Shown: positions 27,547-38,126 of the stretch, in pieces
Numbering within the stretch: position 1 is the first letter of the stretch
Layout: each line of letters begins with the position of its first letter
From: Deltaproteobacteria bacterium
GTDB lineage: Bacteria; Desulfobacterota; DSM-4660; Desulfatiglandales; Desulfatiglandaceae
Assembly (NCBI GenBank): GCA_021737785.1
Contig: JAIPDI010000049.1
Span: forward strand, 1-39,502
Reading direction: 5' to 3'
Length of the DNA stretch: 39,502 nt
Position numbers and translations under genes: made by a program
Notes under the pieces: generated by a model
The model's database searches: none
Told to the model about the DNA's origin: nothing
What the model saw: the letters and a program-made list of their open reading frames with translations, nothing else

Positions 27547-27640
27547 ATCACACAGAGCCGCAGAGCCCACAAAGAAAAAGATCCAACCACACGTATTGAG
27601 CCATCTTTGTGTCTCCGTGTCTCTGTGTGAGAATACTTCG
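27547..27640. repeat. CACACAGAG inverted-repeat element
   Basis: TCACACAGAG (27548-27557) and CTCTGTGTGA (27621-27630) are inverted arms around imperfectly paired GAGCCCACAAAG and CTTTGTGTCTCCG. The element sits just before the FecR-protein ribosome-binding site. Confidence 0.75.
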
Positions 27641-28857: not shown

Positions 28858-29314
28858 AATGAAGACCTTCGCTTTCCCTGACCTTAAAGGCGATGGGCGA
28901 TAAATTCATTCCCGGGAAATCTAAACCGGGGCAAGTCAATGTGATAAACGAGAAGCATTCGAAGCCCTATTCCGAAGGGACCAGCCACCGCGGCATACCG
29001 GAAGTTTGATGGTCTCGTAAAAAGTCAGGAAATGTCATTTTTCGTCATTCCGGCGAAAGCCGGAATCCAGTATATTCAATCAGTTACAAAACCTCTGGAC
29101 CCCGTTTTTCAACGGGGTGACGACTTTTTACGAATGCATCAAGTTTTATGACTCAACCGGGATCGTGAAGTCACGATGATACAACCAGCGATCCCGTTCT
29201 TTTGAAGACTGAATGGCCCTGCAATCGGGCATCATCAGAGAAATGGCATGAATTTTCAAGCGTCCCCGAAGCGAGGCGAGGGGAAAGGGGTGTTTTTTAC
29301 AGGGAGGTTTTGTG
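28858..29314. other. Gene-free interval with MITE-like element and hairpin
   Basis: 457 bases. It holds the 29002-29146 element (listed separately). It also holds an 8-bp stem, CGGGATCG (29158-29165) pairing with CGATCCCG (29189-29196), followed by TTCTTTT, which could be a weak terminator or leader structure. The rest shows no supported feature. GGAGG at 29303-29307 serves the next gene. Confidence 0.5.
29002..29146. mobile_element. MITE-like element with imperfect terminal inverted repeats
   Basis: The left end (29002-29026) and right end (29122-29146) are inverted copies of about 25 bp with five mismatches. They share TCGTAAAAAGTC / GACTTTTTACGA. The interior contains GTCATTCCGGCGAAAGCCGG (29043-29062) and CCCCGTTTTTCAACGGGG (29100-29117). 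There is no coding capacity. It is related to the palindrome at 4439-4518. Confidence 0.75.
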
Positions 29315-32300
29315 ATGGTGATCAAAAAATGGACAACAAAGAAAACATTTACTTTTCTCCTTTTCGGGTTCTGCCTGCTCCTCTTCTCCGGGCCCATACC
29401 CTGTCATGCTGCCACATATGAGCGTTATGTAGACATCAACAACGGTACCGATGACACAGGCCACGGCACATCTTCAGGAGCTGGCGCCTGGAAAACCCTT
29501 CATTACGCCATTCAGCAGATCAACGCCCTCTCACCCCTCACATCAACGGATACCTGCATCGTGTACGTGGCCCAAGGGACCTACAGCGTGGTCGCTGAGG
29601 CCGATGCCGAACTGATTCTTATGCAGAGCTACGTGACCATTCTTGGCAATGATGACCCCAAACCCGTCATCGACGCCACCGGCGCCGCCATTTGGGCGGA
29701 TGGGCTGGAGATTCAGGGCTCGAACGCGGTGGTCACCAACCTTGTCATCAAGAATTTCGCAGCATTCAGCAGCGGCATTATGATTTCCGGATTAAACAAT
29801 GCCGTGGTCAATTGCAACCTCCAGTATAACGAATATGGGGTCTATATTACCGGGGCGGGGAGCCAGAGCAATATCATCGAGGCGTGCGACATCCACCACA
29901 ATGGCTATGGCGTGTTTCTTCAAGAAACCGGGACCGGGAATACCATTGACAATTGCCAGATCTATTCCAATCGGGACTACGGGGTAAAGATACAATCCTC
30001 TCCCGACTCTGCCGTATTGAACAGTGCGATCTATTGGACGACCACCACAGAAGGCGGCGACGGCATTTATGTGGAATACAGCGACGCCGTTATCTTCCAA
30101 AACAGGGTGTACGAGAACTTTTCCTTCGGGATACTGGTCCAGGGCTGCAGCCCGATCATCTGGCAAAACAGGGTCTACGACAACGGCGACGGCATCATGG
30201 TTGCGGGAGAGACCTACGAAGCCTCCCCTCAGATCTGGAACAATCTGATCTATGAAACCGATACCAGTCTGTATAACATGATTCAGGGCATTGGCGTGGA
30301 GAGCTGGGACGGGCTTGCAGGGGCCAGCCCCGTCATCTACCACAACACCCTGGATCACGGCCCATATTATGGTATCCATGTGGGAAACTCCACCACGGCC
30401 ACTATCGATCCGGATATAAAATACAACATCATCACCAATTTCGGGGCAGGCGGCATTTGGTGCGATGGACCGGTGACGACCATTGATTACAACGACGTCT
30501 GGAACAACGGGGCCGGTGGTTCTGTCAACTATTACGGGTGCGCCGCCGGGGGGAACGACATCTCGTCCGACCCCCAGTACGCCGCCACCGGCCACGCCCT
30601 TCAGCCTGGCTCTCCGTGTATCGATAAGATCCCCCCTCTTCCAAATCCCCCGTACGATCCGGTGTCGATCGACATCAACGGCGACCCAAGACCCCAGGGG
30701 TCGGGTTTTGACATCGGCTGCTACGAATACTCCGGCACCTATACGGCAACCATCTCAGGCCGGGTCACCGATTCAACAGGCACGCCGTTGAGCGATATAC
30801 GCGTGAATGCGGTTGACAACAAATGCAATGGAAATGTGTATGGATCTGTGTCAGACGAAAACGGGGACTACGCTATTCCTGTTCCCGAAGGAAAGCTTTA
30901 TGTTGTGGCGCATGCATTCCCCTCCCATCAGAATTACACCCTGGAATGGTGGAACGAGGGCAATGGAACACCTGACTGCAGGCTGGCGACGTCTGTAACC
31001 GCCCTGGCCGACCAGACCACCGGGAACATCGATTTCGCCCTTGCAGCCGGGGGATCTGTATCCGGCACGGTGACCGATTCTCACGGCGATCCAATCCAGA
31101 ATCTCCATATATATGCGGAGGCTCAAGGTTGTGGCGGCAACTGGTTGGGGGGCACCGAGACGGACGTAAACGGGAACTACCAGATTACCGGTCTGCCCGG
31201 TGGCAATACTTACGTAACGGCATGCGCCACCTGTTCAGGTCTGGCCTACATAACCGAATGGTACGACAATGTTACCGATTGCGACTACGCCACGGCGGTT
31301 CAGGTAACCGTGGACGATGATACCCCCAACATCGACTTTTCTTTGCATGCTGGCGGCGTCATTTCCGGCCGGGTCACCGATGGCGGCGGAAATCCGTTGA
31401 ACAACATAACGGTAAATGCGATCGACAACAAATGCGTTGGAAACTGGTACCACTCGTCAACAAACGAAACCGGCGAATACATGGTGGTTGTTCCGACCGG
31501 CACCTATTATGTTCTCGCGATTGGCAGTCACGTGTATCAGAATTATGTCCTGGAATGGTGGAATGATGGGGATGGTACACCCGACTGCAACCAGGCAGCG
31601 CCAGTGGCCGCAGAGGTGGAGCAAACCACAGGCAACATTGATTTTGTCCTTGCAGCCGGAGGGTCCTTATCCGGCAAGGTGACCGACACCAACGGAGATC
31701 CAATCCCGAATCTTGAAGTGGTCGCACACTCTCAAAACTGCGGCGGCAACTGGTTAGGGAGTATGAATACAGACCCGAACGGTGAATACCGTATTGCCGG
31801 CCTTCCCCAGGGCAACACGTATGTCAATACAGATTCCCCGCGTTCGGGTCTGTATTACAGGGACGAATGGTACAACAACGTCCTCACCTGTGATCAGGCC
31901 ACGGCCGTGCCCATAACAATAGGCCAGGACACGCCCGGGATCGATTTTTCACTTATAAACGTCGAGGGCACAACCATCACCGGCACCGTGTACCAAAGTA
32001 ACGGAACGACGCCCCTTGGAGGTATACAGATCTGCGCCTGGCCCTTCCCGGGCGGTACCAACTGGTGCACCACGAGCCAGTCGGACGGGACGTACAGCTT
32101 AACCAACGTACAGCCGGGATACCTGAAAGTTGAGGCCTCGGGCGGGGGGTACCTGACTGAATACTACAACAACGCCTACGACCCCCACTGGGCTACGGCC
32201 GTATGGATCGGCCCAGGTCAGACCACCCCCAACATCAATTTTTCCATGGGGACCAGCGGCTCCATCTCAGGGAAGGTTTTTAAGGGCGATGGCGTCACCC

Positions 32301-34846
32301 CTCTGGCAAACGTATGCGTGGGCGCCTTCATGCACCAGTGCGCGAGCAATCGATATGCAGGGGCACAGACCGACGCCAACGGCAACTACACCATTTCTAA
32401 TCTCCCGCCCCAGACCTACTATCTCGCGGCCAACGCGGCATGCACCACGCCTCAGCACTACCAGCTGGAATGGTGGAACGGCAACGACGGCGGCGGCACG
32501 CTTATCTGCGATCAGGCCGACAGCGTGACCGTCGTCTCAGGAGGCAACACATCACCCGTCAATTTCTCTCTGGATTCATCCAAGGATGCCTACCCGGGGC
32601 CGAAAATCACTTCCAGCGCGCTCTTTTCAGCCCATCTCGCAGATGGAACCATCCAGACCCATATTTGGGCACGCATCAGCGGTCCAAGCCCGCAGGATGT
32701 GGCCTCCTTTACGGCTACCGGTCCCTCGGGAACATTTAACTTAAATATGCTTCAACCCCCCTTCAGGCAACTGGGCACCACATATATTGCCAGTGTGCCA
32801 TCGGTTTTACAAAACGGCGCCTATGCCTTCGTGATCACCGACAGCCTGGGCCGTACAGCCACGGTGACCAGGAATTTCACCTATGACGCCACTGTCCCAC
32901 AAGTGGCTTCATCCACCATGAAGGTGGAAGGGAAGGACAATTACGCCTATGTGGGGACCACCACGCCCACCCTGACCTGGGATGAGGTTGCCGGCGCATT
33001 CACTTACCAGCTATTTATTTATGACTGCGACGGCCAGGCCATATGGTACTTCGAGACAACCGGCGGCACAACGGTCACGGTCCCCGAAGGGTATCTCCAA
33101 CCCGACACCCCGTATTACTGGTGGGTCCGGGTCAATGACGTGACCGGGGAGAACCGGCATTTCAGCGACACCCTCTATTTCTACACCGGCACAAAAGCGT
33201 TCCCCCCCGATCTGACAGAAATATTTACACTTTCATTCGCCTGCCCTGATTATTCAGCCAACTGGTTTGCGGCCCGCAATATTAATCTGGCCCCGTGGGA
33301 TATCAGTTCCTTCAATGTCACCGGGCCGAATGGGACCGTCTATCTCCACAACAACCGCAGTTTTAGATTTCACACGCCCGTCTTCGAAGGGTTTTTTAGC
33401 GGGGGCGGGCCTCTACCCACCCCTGACGGGACCTACACCTTTGAGTTAACGGATACGGATTCAAACACCTACACCCAGACCAAGGCATTCACATACAACC
33501 CCATTTCACCCATTTCCGAGGCATCGAGGTCCCCTGCCCCCAATGCCTACGTGTATACAGGGCGCACATTCAGTTGGGCGCCGGTCTCGGACAGCCGGAC
33601 CCTTTATTACAAGCTTCGCATACGCGATTACAATTCGCGGATCGTCTGGTACGAATCGCCCTACAGTACGGAAACCTCCTGTACCATACCCGACAGCGTG
33701 CCAAGGGCGCCCTACGGGTCCTACAAATGGCAGGTCCTTGTGACTGACAGCCCCACAGATCCAAAAAACATGTCCATGTCAGCCCTGCGCACCATCACCA
33801 GCGCGCCCCTGTCCCAGTATGTTTACACCCTTCCGGGCGGGACAGGCGTGGCAACGGACTACCGGATGTTCACGGTGCCGCTCTATACCGGAACCGTCAA
33901 GGACTTCCTGCAACTCATGGAAAAGACCCTGGGGTTCTATAATCCCATGGGTAGCTGGCGCATCTTTCTCTATGTAAACAACGCGTATTATGAGATAAAC
34001 AGCCCTTCGATCCAGTCCATGCCCTATGCCCCGGGCAATGCCGCCTGGATCATCAGCCGGGACGCCACAGAGGTCCTCTTTTCAGGCGGCACCGAACCAA
34101 AAGGGACATATCCGATGAATCTGAAGGGTAATTCATGGCACATGATCGGCCTCCCCTGGAGCGACACGGGAATAGAACTGTCCAAAATTGCGGTCAGCGA
34201 CGGGACAAACACCTATTTCATTACCGACGAGGCCAATCCTCTGACCGGACATGTGGTGTGGGAGTATACCGGAACCGGCCCCTATTCCGGTTATGTGCAA
34301 CGCGGAGTAGGGGACTCCCTTGCGCCGGGAACCGGGTACTTCTTCAAAGTCACGGCCCAAAACGATGTGAGACTCCTCATCCCACCCGACAACAGCGGGA
34401 CCCAATTCTCTGTCCAGGCCGGCAGGGGACTCGAAGGAAAAAAGCTGAACCGCGTTTATGAAGAAGAGCCCCCGCCGCCGCCCGGGGCGCAGCCTGCATC
34501 CGACATCAAGGCCAACGGCCAGGACGGGTCCATCACGGTATCTTCGGGCAACCTGGTCTCCGTAGCCGTCACCCTCGACCCCGGGGCCTGGGCCGGTCGG
34601 GATGCGGACTGGTGGCTGGCGGCCTACACCCCCTTTTCCTGGTACACCTATATTCATACGATGGGCTGGCAGCCCGGTATCCACCGGTGCATCCAGACCC
34701 CTCTGATCCCGCTATCCACGCCCGTGGAGGTCTTGAACATGCCCCTCCCGAAAGGGCACTACATCTTCTATTTTGCCGTGGACGGCAATGCGGATGGGAT
34801 CCCGGACGCCACCTGGATGGATTCGGTCGGGATAACGGTGGAATAG
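29315..34846 (+). CDS. Giant secreted beta-helix protein with Cna-B/CarboxypepD-like repeats
   Basis: 1843 residues, the largest gene here. A signal peptide (1-32, FLLFGFCLLLFSGPIPCHA) is followed by a right-handed parallel beta-helix at about 35-470 (repeats such as NAVVNCNLQYNEYGVYITG, NIIEACDIHHNGYGVFLQ). Six regulatory-like beta-sandwich repeats of about 100 residues follow (about 475-1088). Each starts I/VSGxVTDxxGxP and carries paired Cys (NKC or QGC, then DC). FN3/Ig-like segments occupy about 1090-1500. A C-terminal region (1510-1843) has YRMFTVPLYTGTVKDFL and SWHMIGLPWSD. There is no sortase, autotransporter or T9SS signal that I recognise. ATG 29315 has GGAGG 7 bases upstream. Likely a surface adhesin or glycan-binding protein, perhaps exported with the upstream barrel protein. 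Confidence 0.85.
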   Translation: MVIKKWTTKKTFTFLLFGFCLLLFSGPIPCHAATYERYVDINNGTDDTGHGTSSGAGAWKTLHYAIQQINALSPLTSTDTCIVYVAQGTYSVVAEADAELILMQSYVTILGNDDPKPVIDATGAAIWADGLEIQGSNAVVTNLVIKNFAAFSSGIMISGLNNAVVNCNLQYNEYGVYITGAGSQSNIIEACDIHHNGYGVFLQETGTGNTIDNCQIYSNRDYGVKIQSSPDSAVLNSAIYWTTTTEGGDGIYVEYSDAVIFQNRVYENFSFGILVQGCSPIIWQNRVYDNGDGIMVAGETYEASPQIWNNLIYETDTSLYNMIQGIGVESWDGLAGASPVIYHNTLDHGPYYGIHVGNSTTATIDPDIKYNIITNFGAGGIWCDGPVTTIDYNDVWNNGAGGSVNYYGCAAGGNDISSDPQYAATGHALQPGSPCIDKIPPLPNPPYDPVSIDINGDPRPQGSGFDIGCYEYSGTYTATISGRVTDSTGTPLSDIRVNAVDNKCNGNVYGSVSDENGDYAIPVPEGKLYVVAHAFPSHQNYTLEWWNEGNGTPDCRLATSVTALADQTTGNIDFALAAGGSVSGTVTDSHGDPIQNLHIYAEAQGCGGNWLGGTETDVNGNYQITGLPGGNTYVTACATCSGLAYITEWYDNVTDCDYATAVQVTVDDDTPNIDFSLHAGGVISGRVTDGGGNPLNNITVNAIDNKCVGNWYHSSTNETGEYMVVVPTGTYYVLAIGSHVYQNYVLEWWNDGDGTPDCNQAAPVAAEVEQTTGNIDFVLAAGGSLSGKVTDTNGDPIPNLEVVAHSQNCGGNWLGSMNTDPNGEYRIAGLPQGNTYVNTDSPRSGLYYRDEWYNNVLTCDQATAVPITIGQDTPGIDFSLINVEGTTITGTVYQSNGTTPLGGIQICAWPFPGGTNWCTTSQSDGTYSLTNVQPGYLKVEASGGGYLTEYYNNAYDPHWATAVWIGPGQTTPNINFSMGTSGSISGKVFKGDGVTPLANVCVGAFMHQCASNRYAGAQTDANGNYTISNLPPQTYYLAANAACTTPQHYQLEWWNGNDGGGTLICDQADSVTVVSGGNTSPVNFSLDSSKDAYPGPKITSSALFSAHLADGTIQTHIWARISGPSPQDVASFTATGPSGTFNLNMLQPPFRQLGTTYIASVPSVLQNGAYAFVITDSLGRTATVTRNFTYDATVPQVASSTMKVEGKDNYAYVGTTTPTLTWDEVAGAFTYQLFIYDCDGQAIWYFETTGGTTVTVPEGYLQPDTPYYWWVRVNDVTGENRHFSDTLYFYTGTKAFPPDLTEIFTLSFACPDYSANWFAARNINLAPWDISSFNVTGPNGTVYLHNNRSFRFHTPVFEGFFSGGGPLPTPDGTYTFELTDTDSNTYTQTKAFTYNPISPISEASRSPAPNAYVYTGRTFSWAPVSDSRTLYYKLRIRDYNSRIVWYESPYSTETSCTIPDSVPRAPYGSYKWQVLVTDSPTDPKNMSMSALRTITSAPLSQYVYTLPGGTGVATDYRMFTVPLYTGTVKDFLQLMEKTLGFYNPMGSWRIFLYVNNAYYEINSPSIQSMPYAPGNAAWIISRDATEVLFSGGTEPKGTYPMNLKGNSWHMIGLPWSDTGIELSKIAVSDGTNTYFITDEANPLTGHVVWEYTGTGPYSGYVQRGVGDSLAPGTGYFFKVTAQNDVRLLIPPDNSGTQFSVQAGRGLEGKKLNRVYEEEPPPPPGAQPASDIKANGQDGSITVSSGNLVSVAVTLDPGAWAGRDADWWLAAYTPFSWYTYIHTMGWQPGIHRCIQTPLIPLSTPVEVLNMPLPKGHYIFYFAVDGNADGIPDATWMDSVGITVE

Positions 34847-35284: not shown

Positions 35285-35629
35285 CCCCGCCATTCAACCC
35301 ATGACCTGAACCGCCTCCACTATCTGATCAGGCTTGCGAAAGACCCTGTCGACGATTCTAACCCAGACAAGCCGGCACAGAACCAAAGAACGCTCACACA
35401 GAGCCCCAAAGCCACAGAGTTTCTTGTTGTTGTAATAGCCTTCTAATTGATTGGAATAGTGCGGTATAGGGTTTCACCCCGGTCAAATAACCGAGACAGC
35501 CATTTGGAGGGTTTTTCTTTGTGGGCTTTGTGGCTCTGTGTGAGTACCGCCTGGGCGGGATGGGTTTCGGCTATGCCGCTTTTGGGCAGTTTATGGGATG
35601 GCCCTGTGTGAGAACAACGGGAGGCCAAA
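35285..35629. other. Gene-free interval with CACACAGAG element
   Basis: 345 bases. 35285-35390 has no supported feature. The inverted element 35393-35544 fills most of the rest, and a further single arm (CCCTGTGTGAGAA) lies at about 35602-35614, just before the kinase ribosome-binding site (GGGAGG, 35619-35624). Confidence 0.55.
35393..35544. repeat. CACACAGAG inverted-repeat element
   Basis: The left arm CTCACACAGAGCC (35393-35405) and the right arm GGCTCTGTGTGAG (35532-35544) are perfect inverted copies. Inner sequences CCAAAGCCACAGAG and TTTGTGGGCTTTGTGG are partly complementary. The family also occurs at 18441, 27547 and 37258. Confidence 0.85.
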
Positions 35630-37165
35630 ATGACCGATAATGATCAAAGAGATCCGGGAATCCTTGCAGCCGACCGACGAGAAAGCGATCGGGTCATGAG
35701 GGAGCGGCTCGGCCGATACAAGAAGGCCTTTCATGTGGGACGGGTCATCGCCTCGGAAATGGACAGGGACCGCCTCTTTGAGGTGGTCATTTATCAGACC
35801 AATGAGGTCATGGAGTCTGTACGGAGCACCGTATTCCTGCACGATGAAAAGGCGGACCAGCTGTGGTCGCTTGTGGGGGTCGGGCTGAAAAAGAGGGAGA
35901 TCCGCATCCCTTCGGATTACGGGGTAGCCGGCTGGGTCTTCAGCCATCGGGCGCCGGTATCCGTTAATGACGCATACAACGATCCGCGCTTTTATTCCGA
36001 GGTGGACAAGAAATCCGGATTCAGGACCAGAAATATCATGTGCGTCCCCCTTGTCAACTGGGCCGGCCGCTGTATCGGCGCACTTCAATCTCTCAACAAG
36101 CGTTCCGGTGATTTCACCGACGACGACATGGAATTATTGACCTTTGTCTCCAATTACGTGACCGTCGCCCTGGAAAATATGATGGTTGTCGAGGAGCTGA
36201 AGGATCTGAATAAGGCGATTGAAAGGGCCATAAATCACCTGTCGCACGAACTGAAAACCCCGCTGGCGCTTATCGCAACCATCTTTGACCGCCTTTTCAA
36301 GGACCTTCATGAAAGAGATGACCCGAAACAGTCAAGAATGATCCATAGGGGAATACGCAATGTGAAGCGGTTGACGGAACTTCAGGCGAAGATTGACGAC
36401 ATACTCAATCTGAGAACCTTCAAGGAAAAGGACCAGATTCGTTACATGGTCGCGTCCGCGGCTGATTTTGTGGAAGAATGCGGTGACGAAATGGATGCGC
36501 GACACGCCGAAGCCCTGGCCCGGGTCCTGAAGCGCATCGAATCGGTTTACGGCATTGAGGATACGCATGCAGAAAGGACAGAACTCTGTGAGTTGTTGAA
36601 CGTCATATCCAATGAAGCCATTTCAGCCATACAGGAAAGGGACCTGGAAATCATCACGGATCTTGAGAAGGGACACGTATTGAATGCTGACGAAAGGGTC
36701 CTGAGGAAGGTTTTTGAAGGCCTTTTAAAAAATGCCATAGAAAATACCCCGGATGAAGGGCGGATAGAGATGGGTCTCAATTGCACGGACCATGAGATCT
36801 GCGTCTATATTCGCGATTACGGCGTCGGCATCAGCCCCCAAAACCAGAAGCTGATCTTCCATGGGTTTTTCCATACCCAGGACACAATGAACTATTCGTC
36901 AAAAAGGCCCTACCAGTTCAATGCAGGGGGAAGCGGTTCGGATCTGCTGCGGACCAAGGTCTTCTCGGAACGCTTTGGATTTTCGGTGGAATTTGAAAGC
37001 ACCCGCTGCCGATTCATCCCCAATGACACGGATGAATGCCCGGGAAGAATATCGACCTGCCCGTTTATAAAGACCACATCAGACTGCTTTTCTTCAGGGG
37101 GCACCACCTTTTCCGTAGGCTTTCCGGTAGCCATTTCACAGGTTCGGGATCAGGGGGCGAGATAA
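35630..37165 (+). CDS. GAF-domain histidine kinase with Cys-rich insert
   Basis: 511 residues, soluble, with no membrane helix. A GAF domain (about 35-195) has RLFEVVIYQTNEVMESVRSTVFL and MCVPLVNWAGRCIGALQSLNK. HisKA has the phospho-acceptor His in INHLSHELKTPLALI (about 200-215). A helical insert follows (about 240-330), then HATPase with GLLKNAIENTPDEG and DYGVGISPQNQKLIFHGFF. The G2 region is changed: after GGSGSDLLRTKVFSERFGF it has C460, C470, C477 and C486 (C-x9-C-x6-C-x8-C) before the last strand SGGTTFSVGFP. These could bind a metal or Fe-S cluster, or form disulfides. No regulator is adjacent, so it is an orphan kinase here. Confidence 0.9.
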   Translation: MTDNDQRDPGILAADRRESDRVMRERLGRYKKAFHVGRVIASEMDRDRLFEVVIYQTNEVMESVRSTVFLHDEKADQLWSLVGVGLKKREIRIPSDYGVAGWVFSHRAPVSVNDAYNDPRFYSEVDKKSGFRTRNIMCVPLVNWAGRCIGALQSLNKRSGDFTDDDMELLTFVSNYVTVALENMMVVEELKDLNKAIERAINHLSHELKTPLALIATIFDRLFKDLHERDDPKQSRMIHRGIRNVKRLTELQAKIDDILNLRTFKEKDQIRYMVASAADFVEECGDEMDARHAEALARVLKRIESVYGIEDTHAERTELCELLNVISNEAISAIQERDLEIITDLEKGHVLNADERVLRKVFEGLLKNAIENTPDEGRIEMGLNCTDHEICVYIRDYGVGISPQNQKLIFHGFFHTQDTMNYSSKRPYQFNAGGSGSDLLRTKVFSERFGFSVEFESTRCRFIPNDTDECPGRISTCPFIKTTSDCFSSGGTTFSVGFPVAISQVRDQGAR

Positions 37166-37257: not shown

Positions 37258-37355
37258 CTCACACGGAGACACGAAGAACAAAAGAAAAGGGCATGTTGCC
37301 GTTTCTTTACAAAAAAAAGATCCTTTGTGTGCTCTGTGTCTTTGTGTGATATTCT
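37258..37355. repeat. CACACAGAG-type inverted element
   Basis: The left arm CTCACACGGAGACACGAAG (37259-37277) and the right arm CTCTGTGTCTTTGTGTGA (37332-37349) are inverted relatives around an A-rich middle. Directly after it, 37356-37379 carries the inverse of the 23-bp motif seen at 4400-4422. Confidence 0.7.
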
Positions 37356-37391: not shown

Positions 37392-38126
37392 ATGTTCTTA
37401 GATTCGGCGCCCGCTGCTGAAAAGCGGCTGGGCCTGACCGACACCTTCTGCTTTTCGTGTCACAACGGTCTTTCGTGCTTCAACCAGTGCTGCCGGAACA
37501 AGCATCTTCCGTTAACGCCTTACGACATTCTGAGGATACGGAAGGCCCTCGGGCTTCACTCGGATTATTTCCTCGAACAATATGCGCTCTACCGCCTGGA
37601 TCCCCTGTCCGGCTTCCCGATCCTGTCGGTGAAAATGGGGGACGGGACCGGGGAGTGCCCGTTTGTCGGTTCCGAAGGGTGCACCATCTATGATGACCGG
37701 CCCACGGCCTGCCGCCTCTATCCGTTGGGACGATCGTCGGGGATAGGGCAAAACGGGACCCCGCCCGAGGCATTTTTCTACCTCCTGGATACGCCGTACT
37801 GTCAGGGGATAAAGGAAGAAAAGATTCAGAGTTTGGCGGACTGGCAGGAAGAGCAGGGGCTTGGCCCTTATATTCAGATGAATGACAGGATGTTGGGCCT
37901 TCTGTTCCATCCCAGGAGGGACCGCGGCGTCCACCTGAACCAAGGGCAGCAGCAGAAGGTCCTGGTGGCCTGCTACAACATCGATCTTTTCAGGGAATTT
38001 GTCTTTAAGAGCGGCCTGGCGGAGGCCTACAAGATTGAACCCTCGGCCCGCAACAGGTTGATGAAGGATGATTCGGCGCTCTTAGACCTGGCGTTTGCAT
38101 ACCTCGACCAAACCCTCTTTCCTTAG
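37392..38126 (+). CDS. YkgJ-family cysteine-cluster protein
   Basis: 244 residues. The Cys pattern FCFSCHNGLSCFNQCC near the N-terminus, then GECPFVGSEGCTIYDDRPTACRLYPLGR, is the zinc- or iron-chelating cluster of the YkgJ/CxxCxxCC family. A later C (TPYCQGI) follows. The C-terminal half (about 130-244) is helical and unassigned. Function in this family is poorly known; metal binding is the safest statement. A GGGAG site lies about 10 bases before the ATG. It is a single gene between the GAF kinase and argF. Confidence 0.87.
   Translation: MFLDSAPAAEKRLGLTDTFCFSCHNGLSCFNQCCRNKHLPLTPYDILRIRKALGLHSDYFLEQYALYRLDPLSGFPILSVKMGDGTGECPFVGSEGCTIYDDRPTACRLYPLGRSSGIGQNGTPPEAFFYLLDTPYCQGIKEEKIQSLADWQEEQGLGPYIQMNDRMLGLLFHPRRDRGVHLNQGQQQKVLVACYNIDLFREFVFKSGLAEAYKIEPSARNRLMKDDSALLDLAFAYLDQTLFP

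Follow-up and report, generated by a model that had tools for sequence, protein, structure and literature searches.

Sensing by histidine kinases is usually assigned to their input domains; an exception, redox cysteines in the ATP-binding domain of SrrB, is reported in passages of two reviews (PMC8774646, PMC8534201). A kinase gene in the window, the whole 39,502-nucleotide stretch of DNA analyzed here, raises the question of whether the enzyme core itself could house a sensor. The sequence-only reading of this stretch had described a GAF histidine kinase with four cysteines, C460, C470, C477, and C486, inside its ATPase domain, and had suggested a metal, Fe-S, or disulfide switch there. All four cysteines are present at the corresponding codons of an intact open reading frame, and Pfam matches the GAF, HisKA, and HATPase_c domains. 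The features of the gene are listed below, with counts referring to the family described in the following sections.

35630 to 37165, + strand: histidine kinase gene, intact open reading frame of 511 residues
35762 to 36172, + strand: GAF domain, residues 45-181 (Pfam PF01590, E 5.2e-16)
36221 to 36400, + strand: HisKA domain, residues 198-257, with H206 in the H box (SHEL) (Pfam PF00512)
36689 to 37129, + strand: HATPase_c domain, residues 354-500, split by the insert (Pfam PF02518 and fold search)
36875 to 36949, + strand: ATP lid and G2 box specific to the family, residues 416-440 (no variation at Y422, F430, A432, G433, G434, or L439 across 65 representatives)
37001 to 37099, + strand: four-cysteine insert, residues 458-490, about 29 residues beyond ordinary kinases (control sequences and predicted secondary structure)
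37007 to 37009, + strand: C460 codon, cysteine in 110 of 110 members
37037 to 37039, + strand: C470 codon, cysteine in 106 of 110 members
37058 to 37060, + strand: C477 codon, cysteine in 110 of 110 members
37085 to 37087, + strand: C486 codon, cysteine in 108 of 110 members

Judged by its motifs, the window protein appears to be a HisKA/HATPase_c kinase, with an H box containing a phospho-acceptor histidine, an N box, and a G1 box. H206, N368, D396, G398, and G400 are each conserved in at least 90% of 65 family representatives, obtained by clustering the kinase modules at 60% identity. Against NCBIfam, the protein scores 72.2 bits at best, compared to a cut-off of 334.2, and its relatives at loci L013-L016 share 80, 70, 52, and 44% identity with it. 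Besides the four cysteines of the insert, it contains C138, C148, C284, C320, C385, and C391. Two of these, C138 (36041-36043) and C148 (36071-36073), lie in the GAF domain and are shared by the window protein and all four relatives compared; they are a possible second cysteine site.

Position of the insert in the catalytic domain

The sequence-only reading had the cysteines replacing the G2 box just before the final strand. The first part of this is wrong, as a G2 box, AGGSGSDLL (residues 432-440), is present just upstream. It departs from the canonical GxGLGL form in its last glycine, which is D in the window protein; across the family, GxG is retained and the next glycine is mostly replaced by D or E. 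The placement before the final strand, on the other hand, is borne out: the insert lies between a strand at residues 452-458 and the last strand at residues 491-499, with strand limits taken from the secondary structure of predicted models. From the serine ending one strand to the S/T opening the next, the gap is about 35 residues here and about 6 in ordinary kinases, hence an insert of about 29 residues.

A control for the cysteines themselves comes from ordinary kinases encoded elsewhere in this genome. Of the 30 best among 118 HATPase_c matches, 25 were readable by motif; between the G2 box and the C terminus, 17 of these contain no cysteine, seven contain one, and one contains two. Relative to ordinary HisKA/HATPase_c kinases of the PhoR, WalK, and CovS types, with which it shares the H, N, and G1 boxes and the catalytic fold, the family is set apart by the insert, by a longer lid with its own invariant residues, and by the acidic residue that mostly replaces the last G2 glycine.

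Structure prediction bears on the core of the domain. AlphaFold2, run on five sequences, models the catalytic core, with a pTM of 0.67 when the domain is predicted by itself. In residues 410-434 and 461-488, pLDDT falls below 50, so that the lid and the insert are not confidently modeled; neither the full-length nor the catalytic-domain predictions gave usable insert geometry. Foldseek matches are ordinary kinase catalytic domains and cover the kinase core only. Among solved structures, a sequence search with the insert profile returned nothing below E 0.18, and the structures matched by sequence reach profile position 158 at most, before the insert. From the general topology of the fold, the insert would project beside the lid.

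Conservation of the cysteines and extent of the family

A search profile of the kinase module, built from nine sequences, matched 112 distinct ORFs. Leaving aside one without the C-terminal part and one ordinary kinase (74 bits), 110 members remain, of which 104 carry the complete set of four cysteines. Among the six exceptions, four lack C470 (L086, L097, L099, and L100), all belonging to group f57 and all carrying an additional cysteine, C480. In L047, the last cysteine is shifted two residues later, and L080 has three cysteines and a truncated end, for which no continuation was found in the three frames of its strand near the gene end. With the lid motif as the sole criterion, at least four cysteines follow within the next 66 residues in 113 of 114 ORFs, L080 again being the exception, although this test is not wholly independent because the loci were fetched with a profile that includes the cysteine columns.

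Across the 65 representatives, the only invariant columns of the whole protein are the six lid and G2 box residues listed above together with C460 and C477. Both TGC and TGT are in use at every cysteine site. As judged from the alignment, conservation of the cysteines equals that of the ATP-binding glycines, and does so regardless of the input domains, which differ among members (47 of the 65 representatives have GAF and 41 have PAS). The sequence-only reading had named poor conservation among close homologs as its refutation; the opposite is found, with C460 and C477 present throughout and the cysteines defining the family. Chance or poorly conserved cysteines are thus ruled out by the 110-member counts and by the zero to two cysteines in ordinary kinases.

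The fifth position, C480, lies three residues after C477 and is a cysteine in 71 of the 110 members. The window protein is without it and has its four cysteines in C-x9-C-x6-C-x8-C spacing. On a tree of 106 rows, calculated by a quick method with the insert left out, at least eight changes of C480 can be counted; 28 of the 103 inner branches of this tree are drawn open. C470 disappears a single time, and the closest relative of the branch concerned carries five cysteines. No change from cysteine to histidine occurs at any of the five positions in the 110 members. The pattern at C470 and C480 is what one would expect of a four-ligand site with a spare ligand.

The same genome holds four further paralogs with 33-38% identity, each with four matching cysteines, and there are up to six paralogs per genome across the family. 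In a profile search of Desulfobacterota, members were found in at least 55 of 395 genomes and at least 41 of 246 genera, both lower bounds because five candidates were scored per genome. When all candidates were scored in six further genomes, members were found in four, although two of the six are not independent, as G397 and G398 have the same match coordinates as G349 and G231, respectively, two genomes of the earlier set. Members in these six genomes score at least 252 bits, whereas weaker matches score 61 to 76 bits and end by profile position 228, except for one 74-bit stretch that is part of a truncated member. The family is easily recognized by lid motif and cysteines, and the four-cysteine insert marks a discrete family of predicted histidine kinases.

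In the two other phyla searched, members are rare or absent. Spirochaetota, the phylum of locus L018, have one genome with members among 198; its two members (L147 and L148) reflect either transfer or genome contamination, and one of the two loci also carries a regulator of the single-domain family described below. The phylum of Desulfosporosinus (locus L017) gave no members in 249 genomes, in a search run without a positive control. No family member was found among the best 15 of 37 plasmid records, all matches being below 60% identity, and viral contigs gave one distant relative with 25% identity.

Nature of the putative cofactor site

The insert is very probably a site for a metal or Fe-S cofactor ligated by cysteines. 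Ligand redundancy, the absence of cysteine-to-histidine changes, and a spacing resembling that of MutY in 69 of 114 family members together favor a thiolate cofactor site over a disulfide. Of the three options originally suggested, metal and Fe-S therefore stand as the best-supported reading, and the disulfide is less likely. As to the kind of cofactor, an Fe-S cluster, perhaps [4Fe-4S], is a better guess than zinc, with roughly even chances of being correct.

One pointer to Fe-S is the spacing C-x6-C-x2-C-x5-C, a hallmark of EndoIII and MutY, which is found in these 69 members. Outside the family, it occurs in only 1 of 1204 ORFs of 150 residues or more, taken from six-frame translations of the loci studied. 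The sole non-member is a MutY-type glycosylase (HhH-GPD and NUDIX) from the same genome. In MutY/MUTYH, a [4Fe-4S] cluster is bound by four cysteines, as described in part of PMC12000561. The kinase family differs from the EndoIII/MutY loop in its extra invariant C460, which a MutY-like cluster would not need, and the window protein itself lacks both C480 and this spacing; these points argue against Fe-S. Two more stand on the same side: CP-rich Cys4 loops are often zinc sites, and the nearby genes give no pointer to redox sensing. With PF10576 (EndIII_4Fe-2S), none of this genome's five inserts gave a match even with the threshold relaxed to E 10, and the profile did not appear when 32 inserts were scanned with a cut-off of E 1. 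Hence, the likeness to EndoIII/MutY would be an analogy of spacing, the one thing in common, and we reject a homologous relationship between the insert and the EndoIII loop. We also observed that the EndoIII-like protein of the same genome (L189, about 1501-1551) has histidine at the second cluster cysteine.

The main rival is structural zinc, a single ion on the four cysteines that would fold the hairpin and the lid without any sensing; we consider it a serious possibility, albeit with chances clearly below even. Four thiolates per site would suit zinc, C470 and C480 swap as the ligands of zinc knuckles may, and the site persists across different input domains, as expected of a structural element. 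Against it, none of the 110 members has exchanged a cysteine for histidine, the four-cysteine members have no close cysteine pair (spacings 9, 6, and 8), and the site is lost in no member apart from the truncated L080. Moreover, zinc-finger families give no above-chance match to the inserts, a Pfam scan of the inserts alone from 32 members having returned chance-level matches only.

A sensor of metal availability, binding a labile metal and reporting its level, would be consistent with the cysteine-only ligands and with several paralogs per genome bearing different input domains. However, a single metal input in up to six paralogs per genome would be redundant, and the 25 commonest Pfam families of operon-like neighbors show no metal transport theme, so that we regard this as improbable. 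Least probable of all is a disulfide switch, in which two cysteine pairs would open and close with redox state and alter kinase activity, as proposed for SrrB and its reported redox-sensitive disulfide in the ATP-binding domain (in passages of PMC8774646 and PMC8534201), because most members have five cysteines, C480 covers the loss of C470, and nearly all representatives look soluble (a simple hydrophobicity test gave no membrane-like stretch for 63 of the 65), so that the site would be located in the reducing cytoplasm.

Comparison with known systems and proposed mechanism

The location had been called unusual for a sensor, which is fair, although SrrB of Staphylococcus aureus provides a precedent. 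According to the passages on SrrB in the two reviews (PMC8774646, PMC8534201), this histidine kinase likewise has cysteines of redox relevance in its catalytic domain, in the form of one redox-active disulfide in the ATP-binding domain; the family here has four or five cysteines rather than a single pair. One of the reviews describes the SrrB cysteines as not conserved in all staphylococci (PMC8774646). The alignment of the solved SrrB chain 6paj stops at profile position 157, at residue 213 of 229, and the 16 residues left leave no room for a four-cysteine insert.

Other kinases hold cofactors in their input domains, as do NreB and AirS with Fe-S. The cyanobacterial Hik2, whose GAF input domain is reported in part of PMC13421787 to carry a [3Fe-4S] cluster, would also be a cytoplasmic kinase with a cysteine-ligated cofactor, if our reading is right, but the site here is in the catalytic domain. 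Similarly, S. aureus WalK has a metal in its cytoplasmic part, but this zinc is bound in the PAS input domain (PMC8534201, in part). A literature search covering mainly openly accessible papers found no description of such an insert or kinase family.

Overall, we favor the explanation that cysteines in the catalytic domain ligate a cofactor, more likely Fe-S than zinc, which gates activity via the lid; as a whole, this explanation may be right or wrong with about equal probability. The four thiolates of C460, C470, C477, and C486 would bind the cofactor within the segment that joins the last two strands, with C480 taking the place of C470 as ligand in one branch. The resulting folded knob could prop the enlarged, co-conserved ATP lid, and the most likely role of the cofactor would be to order hairpin and lid. 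The state or loss of a cluster, in response to oxygen, NO, iron, or redox status, may then affect how the lid closes and how far H206 is autophosphorylated; our guess at the direction is that loss or oxidation of the cofactor would lower autophosphorylation. Such a cofactor would supply a single shared input on top of the signals detected by the variable GAF or PAS domains. If so, the enzyme core itself would be a common sensor, or would need the cofactor to work, across a whole family with several paralogs per genome.

Gene neighborhood

Single-domain response regulators of one discrete family occur in 21 of the 110 kinase loci (26 ORFs versus 1.3 expected, a rough expectation from the density of ten regulator copies in this genome). 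They are about 165-185 residues long; besides the ten of this genome (L149-L158), examples are L015:5366-5887 and L036:3379-3915. No response regulator lies beside the window kinase gene, but one adjoins the kinase in the loci of its close relatives (L015, L023, and L029). A gene order of cysteine kinase, small kinase, and response regulator is found in L036, L041, L044, and L045, and in L046 by position. The small kinase has about 260-280 residues and is without a recognized sensor domain. A more specific proposal, that in this mostly Desulfobacterota family a [4Fe-4S] cluster by the ATP lid gates autophosphorylation and conveys a redox or oxygen input, over the GAF/PAS inputs, to dedicated single-domain regulators, is tentative, and we think it rather doubtful in this full form.

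Several minor observations concern these loci. The small kinases at L036:2472-3299, L041:2480-3328, L044:2482-3324, and L045:2468-3241 have a CxxC motif near the end of the HisKA region. Downstream of the window kinase, the next gene (37392-38126, + strand) encodes a 244-residue CxxCxxCC protein matching PF03692, a domain that putatively chelates zinc or iron; no such gene was seen next to the relatives searched, and its link to the kinase may therefore be accidental. Upstream of the kinase gene is a 21-nucleotide inverted repeat (35393-35413 and 35524-35544, 95% complementary), and related CTTTGTG-type intergenic motifs, including those at 37332-37346 and 27605-27619, give three matches versus 0.06 expected. 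At 29312-34846 (+ strand), an ORF of 1844 residues encodes a right-handed beta-helix and repeated carboxypeptidase-regulatory-like domains.
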